Below the pieces are notes generated by a model. It made no database searches. It saw nothing but the letters and a program-made list of their open reading frames with translations, and had not been told where the DNA came from. From an uncultured Loktanella sp. (GTDB taxonomy: Bacteria; Pseudomonadota; Alphaproteobacteria; Rhodobacterales; Rhodobacteraceae): 64,000 bases of DNA. The stretch is taken from NCBI GenBank assembly GCA_937132065.1, contig CAKZNT010000054.1, positions 54,949-118,948 on the forward strand. The letters run 5' to 3'. Positions 3,927 through 64,000 of this stretch are shown here, in pieces (the first letter of the stretch is position 1; each line of letters begins with the position of its first letter). Made by a program: the position numbers and the translations under genes.

Positions 3927-5690
3927 TCACAGATCCATGTAGACGTGGGTTTCGTGCTTTGCACCCGGATGGGTCACAGCGCCAAGACGGGTTGCCCCCA
4001 CAAGCTGCGCATATTTCCAAAGCGCACCAGAGGCATAGTTCGTCGGACGAGCGCCCGTCCATGCGGCGCGGCGTTCGGCCATATCCTCATCAGAGACATC
4101 AACCGACAACTCACCCGTAATTGCGTTCATCGTGATGACATCACCATCCTTGAGCAAGGCAATCGGGCCACCATGCGCGGCCTCGGGGCCAACATGACCC
4201 ACACAGAACCCACGGGTCGCCCCAGAGAAGCGGCCATCCGTGATCAGCGCCACTTTCTTGCCCATGCCCTGCCCCGAAAGAGCGGCAGTCGTGGACAACA
4301 TCTCGCGCATACCAGGGCCGCCAGCCGGGCCTTCGTTGCGGATGACAAGCACTTCACCCTCTTTGTAAGTGCGCGCCTTCACAGCGGCAAACGCCTCTTC
4401 TTCGTTCTCAAAGACGCGTGCGGGGCCAGTGAACGTCTGTTCTTGGGTCGACATGCCCGCAACCTTTACGATCGCGCCATCGGGGGCGAGGTTGCCCTTG
4501 AGACCAACAACGCCGCCAGTGCGGGTGATTGGTGTCTCGACGGAATAGATGACGCGGCCATCTGCTTCGCCCGTGATTTCGTCCAGTTCCTCACCGATCG
4601 TGCGGCCAGTGGCGGTGATGCAGTCTTCGTGCATCAGGCCAGCCTTGCGCAATTCCTTCATCACAACAGGCACGCCGCCCGCTTCATAAAGGTCTTTTGC
4701 GACATACTGCCCGCCGGGCTTCAGATCGACAAAGTATGGGGTATCCTTAAAGATGTCGCACACGTCATTGAGATCAAAGTCGATGCCAGCTTCATGGGCA
4801 ATCGCAGGCAGGTGCAAACCGGCATTGGTCGAGCCACCGGTGCAAGCCACAACGCGGGCCGCGTTCTCAAGGGATTTGCGGGTCACGACATCGCGGGCGC
4901 GGATGTTCTTGGCGATCAGGTTCATCACCGCCTCGCCAGAGGTGAACCCATACTGGTCGCGGCTTTCGTATGGGGCTGGCATGCCCGACGAATTCAGAAG
5001 CGCAAGACCAATGGCCTCGGAGACACAGGCCATCGTGTTGGCGGTAAACTGGCCACCACACGCACCCGCAGACGGACAAGCGATCCGCTCGAGCGTGGCA
5101 AGAGCCGCGTCAGACATATCGCCATTCTGGTGACGGCCAACGGCCTCGAACATGTCTTGCACGGTCAGGTCACGCCCGATGTATTCGGCAGGCACATCAG
5201 CACCCGCATGCACACGACCCGGCAGGATCGAACCACCGTAGATGAAAACAGACGGCACGTTCAAACGGACCATCGCCATCATCATCCCCGGAAGCGATTT
5301 GTCGCAGCCCGCAAGTCCAACCAGCGCGTCATAGCCATGGCCGCGCATCGTCAATTCAACGGAATCGGTGATCGCCTCGCGCGATGCCAGTGAAGAGCGC
5401 ATGCCCTCGTGGCCCATCGCGATACCGTCAGTCACGGTGATTGTGGTGAATTCGCGCGGCGTGCCATAGGCCGCCTTCACGCCCATTTTGACCGACTGGG
5501 CCTGACGGTTCAGGGCAATGTTACAAGGGGCCGCTTCGTTCCAGCAGGTCGCAACACCAACAAATGGCTGTGCAATCGCATCTTCATCTAGACCCATCGC
5601 ATAGTAGTAGGAGCGGTGCGGCGCACGGCTTGGCCCGTCGGTGACGTGGCGGCTGGGGAGATTTGATTTGTCAAACTTGACCTTAGACAT
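3927..5690 (-). CDS. ilvD: Dihydroxy-acid dehydratase
   Basis: Converts 2,3-dihydroxy-isovalerate and 2,3-dihydroxy-3-methylvalerate to the 2-keto acids in valine and isoleucine synthesis (leucine via the valine branch). I start it at [14 protein letters not shown] (5690), giving 587 aa, a normal length; the track's 100-residue extension is antisense to a divergent gene. Fe-S and active-site signatures are present: [40 protein letters not shown], and the C-terminal [12 protein letters not shown] second member of the IlvD/EDD superfamily lies at 51440-53149 in the galactose cluster; this one has the motifs of the true biosynthetic enzyme. Confidence 0.95.
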
Positions 5691-5798
5691 GCTGCGTTCC
5701 TTCTCAAAAACTGTTGCGCGTGTTGTAAATAAGGGGAGTGGTGCGCACAAGTCGGAACTGTAGTTGCGTCCAATCGGCTGGCGGGTCAAAAACAGTGC

Positions 5799-6704
5799 AT
5801 GAAAGCGCCATATCACGCCATGCTCCAGTTTCGACGCCCCGCAATGGGGCAAACCGATCTCGGGGCGGTTCTGTCGATCATTGTGGCGATGGAACTGGCG
5901 TTTGTGCTGGGGCCGCTGGTCGTTCTGGCAATCCTGCCTGCGCAGATGGGCGCGCTGTTCGAGGTTGGCGACACGGCCTTTGGCGTGGTCCTGCAACTTG
6001 TTTCATTCGGGCTTTATGTCGTGGTGCTGGGCGGGCTTGTGAAGCGACTGCACGGGCGGGGGCTTTGGTCGATGATCGGGCCGCTTGGCGATACGATCAC
6101 GGCGTTCAAGGCCGCGGGCTGGGCCGTTGGGCTGGTCATATTGGCGCAAACCGTGCTGCCGCCAGCGATCGACGCCAGCGAATTTAGCGTCATGCGGCCG
6201 CTGCTGGGGTGGCTTGCATGGATGCCCGTCGTGCTGGTTGCATTGGTGATCCAGACAGGCGCCGAGGAAATCTACTTTCGGGGCTACCTGCAACAACAAC
6301 TGGCCTGCTTGTCCGACAAGCGATGGATCTGGATGGGGCTGCCATCCCTGCTCTTCGGGGTCGGGCACTATATGAACGGCTTTGGGCCTGCGGACGGGGT
6401 TATCTACGCGATTTGGGCCACGTTGCTAGGGCTTGCTTGCGCGGACCTGACGGCACGCACGGGCAATATCGGGGCGGCGGTGGGGTTGCACACGGCCAAC
6501 AACCTGTTTGCCTTTGTGCTGACAGGGGTCGAGGGCTGGCCGTCCAACGGGCTGGCGCTGTTTCTCTACCCATACGAAGACCCGATGATTTACGACTATG
6601 GGCTAGATACCTTGCTTGCGCCTTGGGCGATCTTTGAACTGCTGCTTGCGGCGCTCATGGTGCTCGTGATGTGGCTCGCTGCCAGAATCGCGATCAAGCG
6701 CTGA
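5799..6704 (+). CDS. CPBP-family intramembrane metalloprotease
   Basis: Multi-pass membrane protein of 301 aa with about eight hydrophobic segments. The family motifs are clear: [12 protein letters not shown] (glutamate pair plus Arg), then [10 protein letters not shown] and a final histidine in [10 protein letters not shown]. These define the CPBP (CAAX protease and bacteriocin-processing) glutamic/metallo-peptidase family in the inner membrane. Substrates of most bacterial members are unknown. It is divergent from ilvD and 54 bp upstream of accD, so it may have its own promoter. Three in-frame Met codons (5799, 5820, 5844) could be the start; the hydrophobic core begins just after the last. 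Confidence 0.85.
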
Positions 6705-59963: not shown

Positions 59964-62003
59964 GTGTTAGCCATTCAACCTGAGACCAAAATCGACATCC
60001 ATGACAATATGCGGATCACAGTGCGTGACGGCATTTCGCTATCCGCACGGGTCTGGATGCCCGCATCCGCAGAGATCACACCGCTGCCTGCCATCCTCGA
60101 GATTCTACCCTACCGCAAGCGGGACGGAACAGACGGGCGTGATGCCACGACCCATGCCCAGTTCGCCAAACACGGCTATGTCTGCCTGCGCGTTGACCTG
60201 CGGGGCTGCGGCGAATCCGAAGGGCTATTTGACGACGAATACTCCGAACAGGAGCTAAGTGATATCGAGGACGTTATCGGCTGGATCGCCGAGCAATCCT
60301 GGTGCACCGGAGCCGTCGGGATCATGGGCATTTCATGGGGCGGATTTAACGGCTTGCAAACCGCTGCACGCAGACCGCCTGCGCTAAAGGCGGTGATCAG
60401 CCTATGCTCATCGGTTGACCGGTTCGCCGACGACATCCACTATAAGGGTGGCTGTCAGCTGATGGAGAATATCGGCTGGACGGCCACGGCAACTTCCTGG
60501 TTTTCTGTGCCTCCCGACCCTGCGCTCGTGGGAGATGACTGGCGCGATATCTGGCAAGAGCGGCTCGAAAACACACCGCCCTTGATCAACAACTGGCAAC
60601 AGCACGCCAGCAAAGATGCCTATTGGAAACACGCTTCGGTTAGCGAGGACTTCTCCCGAATCCAGGCTGCGGTTCTGATCATTGGCGGTTGGCACGATGG
60701 CTATCGCAACACTGCGGCCAAATTGCTGGAGGGCGGCACAAGCGGCCCTGTTAAGGCGATCATGGGACCGTGGAACCACAAATATCCGCATCTAGCTACG
60801 CCTGCCCCGCGGATGGATTTCGTGAGCGAGGCGCTCCGGTGGTGGGATCACTGGCTTAAGGACGCGCAAAACGATGTCGAAAACGATCCTGCATACCGCG
60901 CCTATCTGATGGACGGGCTGCCACCCAAGACCAGCTATGACACACGGCCCGGTCGCTGGGTTGGCCTGCCAAAATGGCCCGCAGACGAGATCAAGCACCA
61001 GACTTTCACCCTCGGCAATGCCACATTGGGGCAAGACACGATAACAACGCCGATAGATGTCAAAACCGATGTGAATTGCGGTCAGGGGTTTGGCGAATTT
61101 TTCCCCTTCGGCTTTGGGCCAGGTGAATTGCCCGATGACCAGCGGGCAGATGATGCATTGTCCGCCTGCTTTGAAACCGCCCCTCTCCTAGAGGCAACGT
61201 CTTTGATCGGTGCGGCGCGATTGCACCTCTCCTTTTCTGCAAACACGCCCTTTGCGCAAATGGCCGCGCGGCTTTGCGATGTTGGCCCTGACGGGGCGTC
61301 TACACAGATTTCGCTCGGCATCTTGAACCTGCAATTTCGCGAAGGGTTTGAAGAGGCGAAGCCACTTGTCCCGCATCAAATCTATGACGCAACACTCGAC
61401 CTTGATCAAATGGCCTACGTCGTGCCCGAGGGGCATCGGCTGCGGCTTGCGATCTCGCCCAACTACTGGCCATTTATCTGGCCTGAACGCGGCGAGACAA
61501 CACTGACCTTGACGCAAGGGACGCTCGATCTTCCCGTATTTCATGACACTGGTCATCTCGATTGGACCTGCCCGCCGCTCGCACACACCCCGCCCACCGT
61601 TCTCAAAACGCTTTCGACTGGCCCGGAAGAAAAACGGACATTCGTCGAAGACGGCAAGTTAAAGCTGGTCATTAGCGCCGATCACGGCGAAACAGAGCAT
61701 AGCGAGCATGGATTGCGCACATCAAGCGCGATCCACGAAACGTGGTCCATAGACCAGTCAGATATAGCAAAGGCCCAAGCAGATATAGTCTGGAAACGGG
61801 CCGTGGCGCGCGACGACTTTTGCGCGTCAACCGAAGTTGTCACAAAGATGCGTAGTGACAGCGAGAGATATTACGTTACGCTAACGATCAGAGCCTTTGA
61901 TGCACAAACCTGTATCTTTGAGCGCGACTACCACGAGAGCTTCTGGCGCGACTTAACGCGCCAAGGACAGCCCTCGTTGAATTCTAAGGGAGAAACAAAA
62001 TGA
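59964..62003 (+). CDS. CocE/NonD-family hydrolase (X-Pro dipeptidyl-peptidase-like)
   Basis: 679 aa from GTG at 59964. Its GGAGG site is immediately adjacent, so the start may instead be ATG at 60009 (MRITVRDGISLSARVWMP). The core has ILPYRKRDGTDGRD, VDLRGCGESEGLFDDEY and catalytic Ser in GIMGISWGGFNGLQ, then His in GPWNHKYPH; the C-terminal jelly-roll domain follows. The family includes cocaine esterase and acyl/peptide hydrolases; here the substrate is unknown. The end overlaps the next gene by 4 bp. Confidence 0.85.
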   Translation: MLAIQPETKIDIHDNMRITVRDGISLSARVWMPASAEITPLPAILEILPYRKRDGTDGRDATTHAQFAKHGYVCLRVDLRGCGESEGLFDDEYSEQELSDIEDVIGWIAEQSWCTGAVGIMGISWGGFNGLQTAARRPPALKAVISLCSSVDRFADDIHYKGGCQLMENIGWTATATSWFSVPPDPALVGDDWRDIWQERLENTPPLINNWQQHASKDAYWKHASVSEDFSRIQAAVLIIGGWHDGYRNTAAKLLEGGTSGPVKAIMGPWNHKYPHLATPAPRMDFVSEALRWWDHWLKDAQNDVENDPAYRAYLMDGLPPKTSYDTRPGRWVGLPKWPADEIKHQTFTLGNATLGQDTITTPIDVKTDVNCGQGFGEFFPFGFGPGELPDDQRADDALSACFETAPLLEATSLIGAARLHLSFSANTPFAQMAARLCDVGPDGASTQISLGILNLQFREGFEEAKPLVPHQIYDATLDLDQMAYVVPEGHRLRLAISPNYWPFIWPERGETTLTLTQGTLDLPVFHDTGHLDWTCPPLAHTPPTVLKTLSTGPEEKRTFVEDGKLKLVISADHGETEHSEHGLRTSSAIHETWSIDQSDIAKAQADIVWKRAVARDDFCASTEVVTKMRSDSERYYVTLTIRAFDAQTCIFERDYHESFWRDLTRQGQPSLNSKGETK

Positions 62004-63292
62004 CAAATGAACTAAAGTATCTCAGCCAGCAGGTTGCACGCCAGCGCCTTGACCGTCGTAGCTTCTTGGGCCGTGCGGGCGCATTGGGCGTCTCTGCCGC
62101 CGCAGCCAGCACCCTGCTTTCCAGCGCCGTGATGGCACAAGGCGCCGTCAAGGGCGGCACAATCAAGGTTGCCGTAGAAGGCGGATCGTCCACGGACAGC
62201 CTTGATCCGGCACTTGTCACCAACTCGACAGGCACACTTGTGAACCGCCTTTGGGGCGAGCCGCTTGTTGAACTGGACGCCGATGGTGGCCTAGAGATGC
62301 GCTTGGCTTCCGAAGTGATTGCATCCGATGACGCAACCACATGGACATTCAAAATTCGTGAAGGGGTTACGTTCTCGGACGGCAAATCCCTCACCGCAGA
62401 AGACGTGCTTGCAACACTCGAGCGCCACGCTGGCGAAGACTCCAAATCGGGTGCTCTCGGTATCCTGAGCGGCATCAAATCCATGCGCGCTGACGGCAAT
62501 GCATTCATTGTTGAGCTGACGGGTCCAAACGCCGACTTGCCCTTCCTGTTGAGCGATTATCACCTGATGATCCAGCCGAACGGCGGCAAAGATGCGCCAG
62601 ACGCGGCCATTGGCACAGGGCCATATATCTTGAAGAGCGCTGAAATGGGCGTTCGCTTTGTGGCCGAAAAGAACCCGAATTACTGGAACCCTGATCTTGG
62701 GCACGCCTCTACGATCGAAGTCACCGTAATTAACGATGACACCGCACGTGTTGCAGCCCTCCAATCTGGTCAGGTTCACATGTGCACACGCGTGCCGCCA
62801 AAGGTCGCTTCGCTTGTAGGGCGCATGTCGGGCGTCGAGGTGCATTCTGTGCCCAGCGCGGGCCATTATGTCTTTATCATGCACGCCAACACAGCGCCGT
62901 TTGATAACAATGACCTGCGTCTGGCCCTGAAGTATGCGATGAACCGCGAAGAGATGGTCGATAAAATCCAACAAGGGGTAGGTAATGCGGTAACGGCCAT
63001 GTCTAATAGTCATAAAATGGCCGAAGGCACGGTGACCGAATCAAAAGAGGTTGAAGAAGCATTAGAGGCGATTCACGACAAGGTTTCCTCGATTGCTGAA
63101 ATGAACACTCATATCGCCGAAGCGGTTAAACAACAAGCAGCAACCGCCGAAGATATCGACAGAAACATTGTGGGCATTAGTCGAGTAGCCGAAGATAATG
63201 TCGGCAATGCCGCAGAAACCACACGAGCAAGTGAAGAAATGGCGACCAAAGCCAACCAATTACGCGAAATGCTAACCTCATTTAAGGTCTGA
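62000..63292 (+). CDS. Hybrid ORF: family-5 ABC binding protein joined to chemotaxis-receptor tail
   Basis: Residues 1 to about 322 are a peptide/opine-type family-5 solute-binding protein with a Tat signal (DRRSFLGRAGALGVSAAAAS), the SSTDSLDPALVTNS motif and LRLALKYAMNREEMVDKI. Such proteins are normally about 500 residues; this one breaks off at roughly two-thirds. From about residue 324 the chain is a methyl-accepting chemotaxis protein C-terminus (EALEAIHDKVSSIAEMNTHIA, VKQQAATAEDIDRNIVGIS), with AT-richer DNA. The fused product makes no biological sense: the periplasmic receptor would carry a cytoplasmic signalling helix. I treat it as a chimeric join, with the binding protein truncated. 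Confidence 0.85.
   Translation: MTNELKYLSQQVARQRLDRRSFLGRAGALGVSAAAASTLLSSAVMAQGAVKGGTIKVAVEGGSSTDSLDPALVTNSTGTLVNRLWGEPLVELDADGGLEMRLASEVIASDDATTWTFKIREGVTFSDGKSLTAEDVLATLERHAGEDSKSGALGILSGIKSMRADGNAFIVELTGPNADLPFLLSDYHLMIQPNGGKDAPDAAIGTGPYILKSAEMGVRFVAEKNPNYWNPDLGHASTIEVTVINDDTARVAALQSGQVHMCTRVPPKVASLVGRMSGVEVHSVPSAGHYVFIMHANTAPFDNNDLRLALKYAMNREEMVDKIQQGVGNAVTAMSNSHKMAEGTVTESKEVEEALEAIHDKVSSIAEMNTHIAEAVKQQAATAEDIDRNIVGISRVAEDNVGNAAETTRASEEMATKANQLREMLTSFKV
62961..62990. other. Junction 1: binding protein to chemotaxis-receptor tail
   Basis: Around DKIQQGVGNAV the sequence can be read as either partner: family-5 proteins continue MVDKI...G.G, and MCPs often have a ...QQG...AV.AM... stretch. 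Upstream DNA is GC-rich and roseobacter-like; downstream codon use is AT-richer (gcattagaggcgattcac). Exact breakpoint is not resolvable within about 20 bp. Confidence 0.8.
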
Positions 63293-63294
63293 CT

Positions 63295-63900
63295 ATGTCA
63301 CTTCAGGCGCAATATAACATTACTGAAAAAAGCATGGCGAGTTACTCGCCGCTTGATCAACTCTCTTCAACCTATCTTGCCGAGATTATTAAAAAGGGGC
63401 GAGTCGTTGTATTTGATGCAGGAGATACGTTGTTCGAGAAAGGGCACGATCTGGATTTTCACTACTATTTACTAGCGGGCAAAATATCCGTTAAAAAGGG
63501 CATGTTTTCCAGCAAGTCTGTCGATAGTAAGCAGAAGGAATCATTGCACCCTATCAACAACCTTATTCCAAGCGAGTCGAGTGTTAAAGCCCAAACCGCA
63601 GGCCACCTGTTTTTGGTGGACCCCAAGTTGCTTGATCGCGCTCTAGCGTGGAATGAGTCAAATCCGGTTAACGAAAAAAAGCGCCCACAAAATAACGCCA
63701 AATCCTCCACGCCTGTACAAGTACAGGGAAAGTTTGATGAGGATTACTTTAATTGGATGACCAGTTTACTGGAGTTTCCACTATTTCTGAATCTTCCACC
63801 TGCAAATATTACCGAGCTTTTTGACCAGTTTGCGCAGCTTCTCTACGTCAGTGTCATATGTCACCCGAAGTGGCAGTTTCACCATAACCCAATCGCGTGA
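63295..63900 (+). CDS. Cyclic-nucleotide-binding-domain protein, truncated by a join
   Basis: Starts MSLQAQYNITEKSMASYSPLDQL two bases after the chemotaxis fragment. A cNMP-binding fold can be seen (GRVVVFDAGDTLFEKGHDLDFHYYLLAGKISVKK ... TAGHLFLVDPKLLDRAL), followed by a linker and the start of a second repeat (FDEDYFNWMTSLLEFPLFLNLPPANITELFDQF). After about residue 181 the frame runs into antisense MscS sequence (LLYVSVICHPKWQFHHNPIA), so the natural C-terminus is lost. AT-rich codon use and style look gammaproteobacterial. Native to another organism, I suspect. Confidence 0.75.
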   Translation: MSLQAQYNITEKSMASYSPLDQLSSTYLAEIIKKGRVVVFDAGDTLFEKGHDLDFHYYLLAGKISVKKGMFSSKSVDSKQKESLHPINNLIPSESSVKAQTAGHLFLVDPKLLDRALAWNESNPVNEKKRPQNNAKSSTPVQVQGKFDEDYFNWMTSLLEFPLFLNLPPANITELFDQFAQLLYVSVICHPKWQFHHNPIA

Positions 63901-63999
63901 GTAGTTGGTCAATTGCCTTATTTCCCCGAACGGTATCGTATGTAAGGCGCCCAGATGGTGTCGAAGTTGAAAAGAGCGGATCGAGATCGACTCTACTGT
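63781..63999 (-). CDS. MscS-family mechanosensitive channel, internal fragment (runs off right edge)
   Basis: Absent from the ORF track. The minus strand from the right edge reads TVESISIRSFQLRHHLGAL, HTIPFGEIRQLTNYSRDWV, then MVKLPLRVTYDTDVEKLRK, the beta-domain core of MscS-type channels (LRHHxGxxHTIPFG, TNYSRDW). About 60 residues are genuine; after KKLG the frame enters the cNMP gene and stops at 63781. The gene's N-terminal part lies beyond the window and its C-terminus is lost at the join. The sequence style is alphaproteobacterial. Confidence 0.85.
   Translation of the reverse strand, partial: TVESISIRSFQLRHHLGALHTIPFGEIRQLTNYSRDWVMVKLPLRVTYDTDVEKLRKLVKKLGNICRWKIQK
63811..63840. other. 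Junction 2: cNMP-binding protein to antisense MscS gene
   Basis: ACCGAGCTTTTTGACCAG encodes TELFDQ on plus and belongs to the cNMP protein, while its complement encodes the LVKKLG of an MscS channel on minus. Both readings fit over about 20 bp, marking the seam. The strand of the coding sequence flips here. Confidence 0.75.
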
Positions 64000-64000
64000 A

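Follow-up and report, generated by a model that had tools for sequence, protein, structure and literature searches.

An open reading frame joining a solute-binding protein to a chemotaxis-receptor tail in an uncultured Loktanella genome is very probably a false joint at a contig end

The stretch of DNA that was analysed (the window, 64,000 nucleotides) covers positions 54949-118948 of contig C54 of the genome of an uncultured Loktanella sp. The contig is 118948 bases long, and window base 64000 is its final base. The genome consists of 92 contigs with a total of 2,937,835 bases, a fragmentation which suggests that it is a MAG (a metagenome-derived bin). Near the end of the window, a CocE/NonD-type hydrolase gene (59964..62003, + strand), the native upstream neighbour of a solute-binding protein (SBP) gene, is followed by a single open reading frame (ORF) of 430 aa at 62000-63292. 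The first part of the ORF (62000..62969, + strand) is host DNA encoding the N-terminal part of the SBP, while 62970..63292 (+ strand) encodes the C-terminal helix of a gammaproteobacterial chemotaxis receptor (MCP). The first half of a cNMP-binding gene (63295..63832, + strand) comes next, and an antisense fragment of a Rhodobacterales-like MscS-type channel gene (63833..64000, - strand) reaches the contig end. Since C54 stops at window base 64000, the odd stretch is the terminal ~1.05 kb of the contig, in which sequence comparison distinguishes three segments with unlike affinities.

The first-pass annotation described the ORF as a family-5 SBP that becomes an MCP signalling tail, and profile searches confirm both halves. 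A TAT signal (TIGR01409) is found at the start. Residues 99-349 match PF00496 (SBP_bac_5) with an E-value of 2.9e-58 over profile positions 3-260 of 368, and when this part is scored alone it reaches 190.1 bits against a cut-off of 32.4 and is a true family member. Residues 313-396 match PF00015 (MCPsignal) over profile positions 88-171 of 172 with 29.5 bits, which is below Pfam's cut-off of 34.6. A coincident shift to AT-richer and differently coded DNA had also been described, and both changes were observed. The GC is 0.571 in 62000-62965 and 0.449 in 62986-63832. A host-versus-gammaproteobacterium codon score, for which four host genes and the genes of the gammaproteobacterial locus L026 described below (homologous parts excluded) served as training sets, changes from +0.116 per codon for 62000-62947 to -0.150 for 62972-63289. 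This score is never below +0.060 in 88 host windows of 106 codons and never above -0.033 in 97 gammaproteobacterial windows of equal length, so the codon usage of the MCP part is gammaproteobacteria-like. The score for 63295-63831 (-0.046) is also beyond the host range, though weakly so.

The first half of the ORF, when searched separately, matches alphaproteobacterial SBPs. The nearest orthologues belong to G510 (88% aa) and G255 (87% aa), both from the family of the source genome, and a match at E ≤ 1e-80 is present in 139 of 394 family genomes, the source genome counted. The orthologue of G255 has 527 aa. Outside the source genome, the nine best matches having loci lie in open frames of 528-566 aa, and the close orthologues are full length. 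The SBP part in the window corresponds to about 323 of about 527 residues (~61%), so that the last ~200 residues are absent and, as the PF00496 match indicates, the two-lobed binding domain is not full length. In Pseudooceanicola algae, the gene order is hydrolase, SBP (PSAL_RS18195), permease, permease, and ATPase. Pieces of 60092-61484 align to the P. algae CocE/NonD hydrolase coding sequence directly upstream of its SBP, and similar hydrolase DNA lies upstream of the G510 orthologue (L125), while none was found upstream of the G255 orthologue. The locus resembles the family-5 SBP of a peptide-type ABC operon in its Tat-type start and its gene order, but only the first ~323 residues are present. 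The DNA homology to the intact SBP orthologues (L125, L126, and L041) stops at 62969.

The native continuation of the broken SBP gene is present elsewhere in the assembly. An SBP C-terminus with 57% aa identity to the P. algae protein has been found at C29:36252-36653, where it is followed by a permease (318 aa), a second permease (275 aa), and an ATPase (550 aa). In sequence, these three resemble the genes downstream of the SBP in G255, whose ORFs have 318, 275, and 549 aa. The gap between the C54 and C29 pieces, measured on orthologues, is 224 nt (L126) or 230 nt (L125), and these intervening 224-230 nt of the gene were not located in the source genome.

Contig C29 has joins of its own. At C29:36249-36707 (L055 6249-6707, - strand), an in-frame fusion connects the SBP C-terminus with the first ~27 residues of an ABC-ATPase-like protein, and this has the appearance of a second false joint. 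The ABC-ATPase-like part matches 354 plasmid records at E ≤ 0.01, the top one carrying the annotation of an ABC-type sugar transport ATPase, and we take the fragment to be of the UgpC/MalK type. When the joint region was searched against plasmids with blastn, the SBP matches began at query base 453, and a TIM-barrel gene was matched once, weakly. Where C29 ends (L055 7525-8520, - strand), an integron-integrase-like N-terminal fragment continues in frame as a zinc-type dehydrogenase. The integrase-like fragment alone matches TIGR02249 (2.1e-5) below the curated cut-off and PF13495 above its cut-off, and a tblastn search of this 45-aa end against plasmids gave no match. The fusion looks like a further chimera.

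Scanning genome contigs with the 108-aa tail of the C54 ORF gave two loci, one from an Oleiphilaceae MAG (L026, 94% aa) and the other from a Hahellaceae MAG (L027, 87% aa). A separate search of the two halves, as had been proposed in the first-pass annotation, thus leads to unlike lineages: the SBP to alphaproteobacteria, with the host's own family as the best, and the tail to Oleiphilaceae-related gammaproteobacteria. The MCP of L026 is intact (678 aa, with HAMP and MCPsignal) and is directly followed by an intact 355-aa cNMP-binding gene (5330-6397, PF00027). The region 62948-63832 aligns with this MCP-cNMP pair without a break at 79% nt identity. Nine of the 146 genomes around that of L026 (G031) match at E ≤ 0.001, and near-whole-stretch matches (76-78% nt) are found in four, namely G031 itself, G033, G034, and G035. 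In each of these four, the homology starts at 62948 and ends at 63832 or 63835. None of the 146 genomes exceeds 79% nt over a long stretch, and no exact gammaproteobacterial parent was found among them. The MCP tail noted at first is therefore present, but the foreign stretch does not end with the ORF; it continues to 63832, and a third piece extends to 64000.

The comparison with the Oleiphilaceae MCP also indicates what the ORF lacks. The final 108 MCP residues are 94% identical and the downstream gene also follows, but the first ~570 residues, comprising the sensor part, HAMP, the first helix, and the tip, are missing from the window. In intact relatives, a conserved sequence which we take to be the hairpin tip lies upstream of the joint. 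The tail consequently holds the descending helix only, and the ORF contains neither HAMP nor a complete signalling hairpin with its tip. A native origin of the tail as an MCP of the host lineage was considered and rejected: in a set of 31 genomes that contained the source genome, the highest-ranking match elsewhere has 26% identity (E 1.8e-5). With the top candidates of each genome scored, the tail was found at E ≤ 1e-8 in none of the 393 other family genomes and only in the source genome among all 394. The same fusion in independent genomes, which the earlier reading had regarded as decisive counter-evidence, was accordingly not found. No other MCPsignal protein was found in the source genome by a search that, as a control, was positive in 7 of 14 known genomes.

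The third segment belongs to another gene. From 63811 to the end, the opposite strand matches mechanosensitive channel genes in 8 plasmid records at 69-76% nt identity, four from Sulfitobacter, two from Tritonibacter (unannotated), and one each from Azospirillum and Paroceanicella. The fragment has 75% nt identity to Tritonibacter and Sulfitobacter, is 81% identical in aa to the channel of Sulfitobacter, and has a weak PF00924 match. The piece may be the host's own DNA, although no other close copy of the Sulfitobacter channel gene was found in the source genome, the five further matches being distant (25-28%). The end of an insertion sequence was also considered for 63833-64000 and rejected, as a search of 63700-64000 found neither direct nor inverted repeats and the piece is an antisense MscS fragment.

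The first-pass annotation placed the join in a stretch that fits both families, and this can be refined to 62948..62969 (+ strand), where the two homologies overlap. At this first joint, the host homology extends to 62969 and the gammaproteobacterial homology begins at 62948, giving 22 nt that match both parents and encode EEMVDKI in both. At the second joint (63811..63832), the gammaproteobacterial homology extends to 63832 and the MscS homology begins at 63811, and the overlap is again 22 nt. Because the best gammaproteobacterial match is 79% nt and the exact parents are lacking, these figures for the short shared word at each joint are bounds drawn from relatives and could be off by a few bases. 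By chance alone, random genomes of 2.94 and 4.4 Mb are expected to share about 1.5 22-mers and 5.9 21-mers, so the words at the joints require no special cause. Since EEMVDKI is encoded by either parent at the first joint, the reading frame continues through it, and the MCP helix is in frame by accident of the common word.

These observations make it very probable that the ORF results from false joining at a contig end of a 92-contig assembly and is not a receptor. The original suggestion of a misassembly or amplification chimera is supported by the three source-like segments, by the intact parents found elsewhere, and by the remainder of the SBP gene on C29. The second joint, the contig end, and this remainder go beyond what the first-pass annotation had noted. 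The assembly graph is presumably where the joints originated. There, the path (unless a library chimera, which is less likely, is the cause) would have left the alphaproteobacterial SBP gene via a ~22-nt word and continued in an MCP gene from a gammaproteobacterium related to Oleiphilaceae. After about 860 bases, a second ~22-nt word would have led into the Rhodobacterales-like mechanosensitive-channel gene, in which the contig ends. PMC7299287 describes how k-mers common to different genomes yield chimeric contigs. The chimeric contigs of short-read metagenomes described there combine several genomes in one contig at short shared words, as in C54, but they mostly involve closely related species, whereas the segments in C54 resemble different classes.

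A graph misassembly is the most likely origin, with a wet-lab chimera second. A chimeric molecule formed by PCR, ligation, or whole-genome amplification before sequencing and then assembled faithfully is an unlikely source, although joints at short words also suit template switching and three source-like segments lie within ~1 kb. Two overlaps of ~22 nt together with the joints on C29 would be better suited to the fixed word length of an assembler, and the consensus would seldom follow a scarce chimeric molecule.

A real rearrangement, in which horizontally acquired gammaproteobacterial DNA was inserted in the SBP gene and left a dead fusion gene, is very improbable. The acquisition of DNA is common among proteobacteria, and the MCP and cNMP genes are adjacent in their natural order. 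However, the foreign piece begins and ends in the middle of a gene with a ~22-nt overlap on each side, and it is followed by MscS DNA whereas the SBP remainder is located on C29. That no repeats were found in 63700-64000 and no tail in the other family genomes also argues against this possibility. There is a very slight chance that a recent acquisition in one strain produced a Tat-exported protein, dead or odd, whose tail is an MCP helix, while the SBP gene was interrupted and its remainder came to lie elsewhere.

SBPs and chemoreceptors do cooperate in nature, as ligand-loaded SBPs can activate chemoreceptors through binding to their LBDs (PMC9602780). In that case, the two are separate proteins that make contact outside the cytosol, the words "fused" and "fusion" do not occur in that paper, and there is no sign of such a link in the window. 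A genuine new receptor with a Tat-exported SBP domain and an MCP signalling tail can practically be dismissed, since apart from 430 aa in one open frame there is an MCP piece restricted to the helix after the tip, an SBP without its final ~200 residues, no other MCP found in the genome, and no such tail in any other family genome examined.

Other contig ends of the assembly were scanned for GC. Of the 184 ends, 62 were loaded and 57 were readable. The starts of C23 and C19 are strongly low in GC, and the start of C13 and the end of C1 more weakly so. At the start of C23 (L089 1-~1150), the GC is 0.26-0.41, and the DNA encodes a SnoaL-like lipoprotein as well as an MFS piece of 201 aa that covers only profile positions 1-169 of 347; past ~1150, glmS-like DNA with normal GC follows. 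This end may be foreign DNA from a low-GC organism. It has no match among plasmids, and low GC alone was therefore not accepted as proof of a chimera. The start of C19 (L085 1-~450) has a GC of 0.32-0.37, which is normal afterwards, and contains a short ORF without a Pfam match. Innocent readings exist for the two weaker ends, with an HNH_2 protein (below Pfam's cut-off) at the C13 start and a transposase near the C1 end. The latter is an IS1595-family transposase (L105 766-1728) beside a lower-GC end (0.42-0.50), and the C1 end is probably a natural mobile region.

If the ORF were annotated as it stands, databases would gain a fusion of a periplasmic binding protein and a chemoreceptor, and a chemotaxis gene would be assigned to a genome in which no other MCP has been found. 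The occurrence of the same short helix word in both parent proteins makes in-frame chimeras possible at contig ends. It would be appropriate to trim or flag both the terminal ~1.05 kb of C54 and the fused ends on C29, and no new receptor should be annotated.
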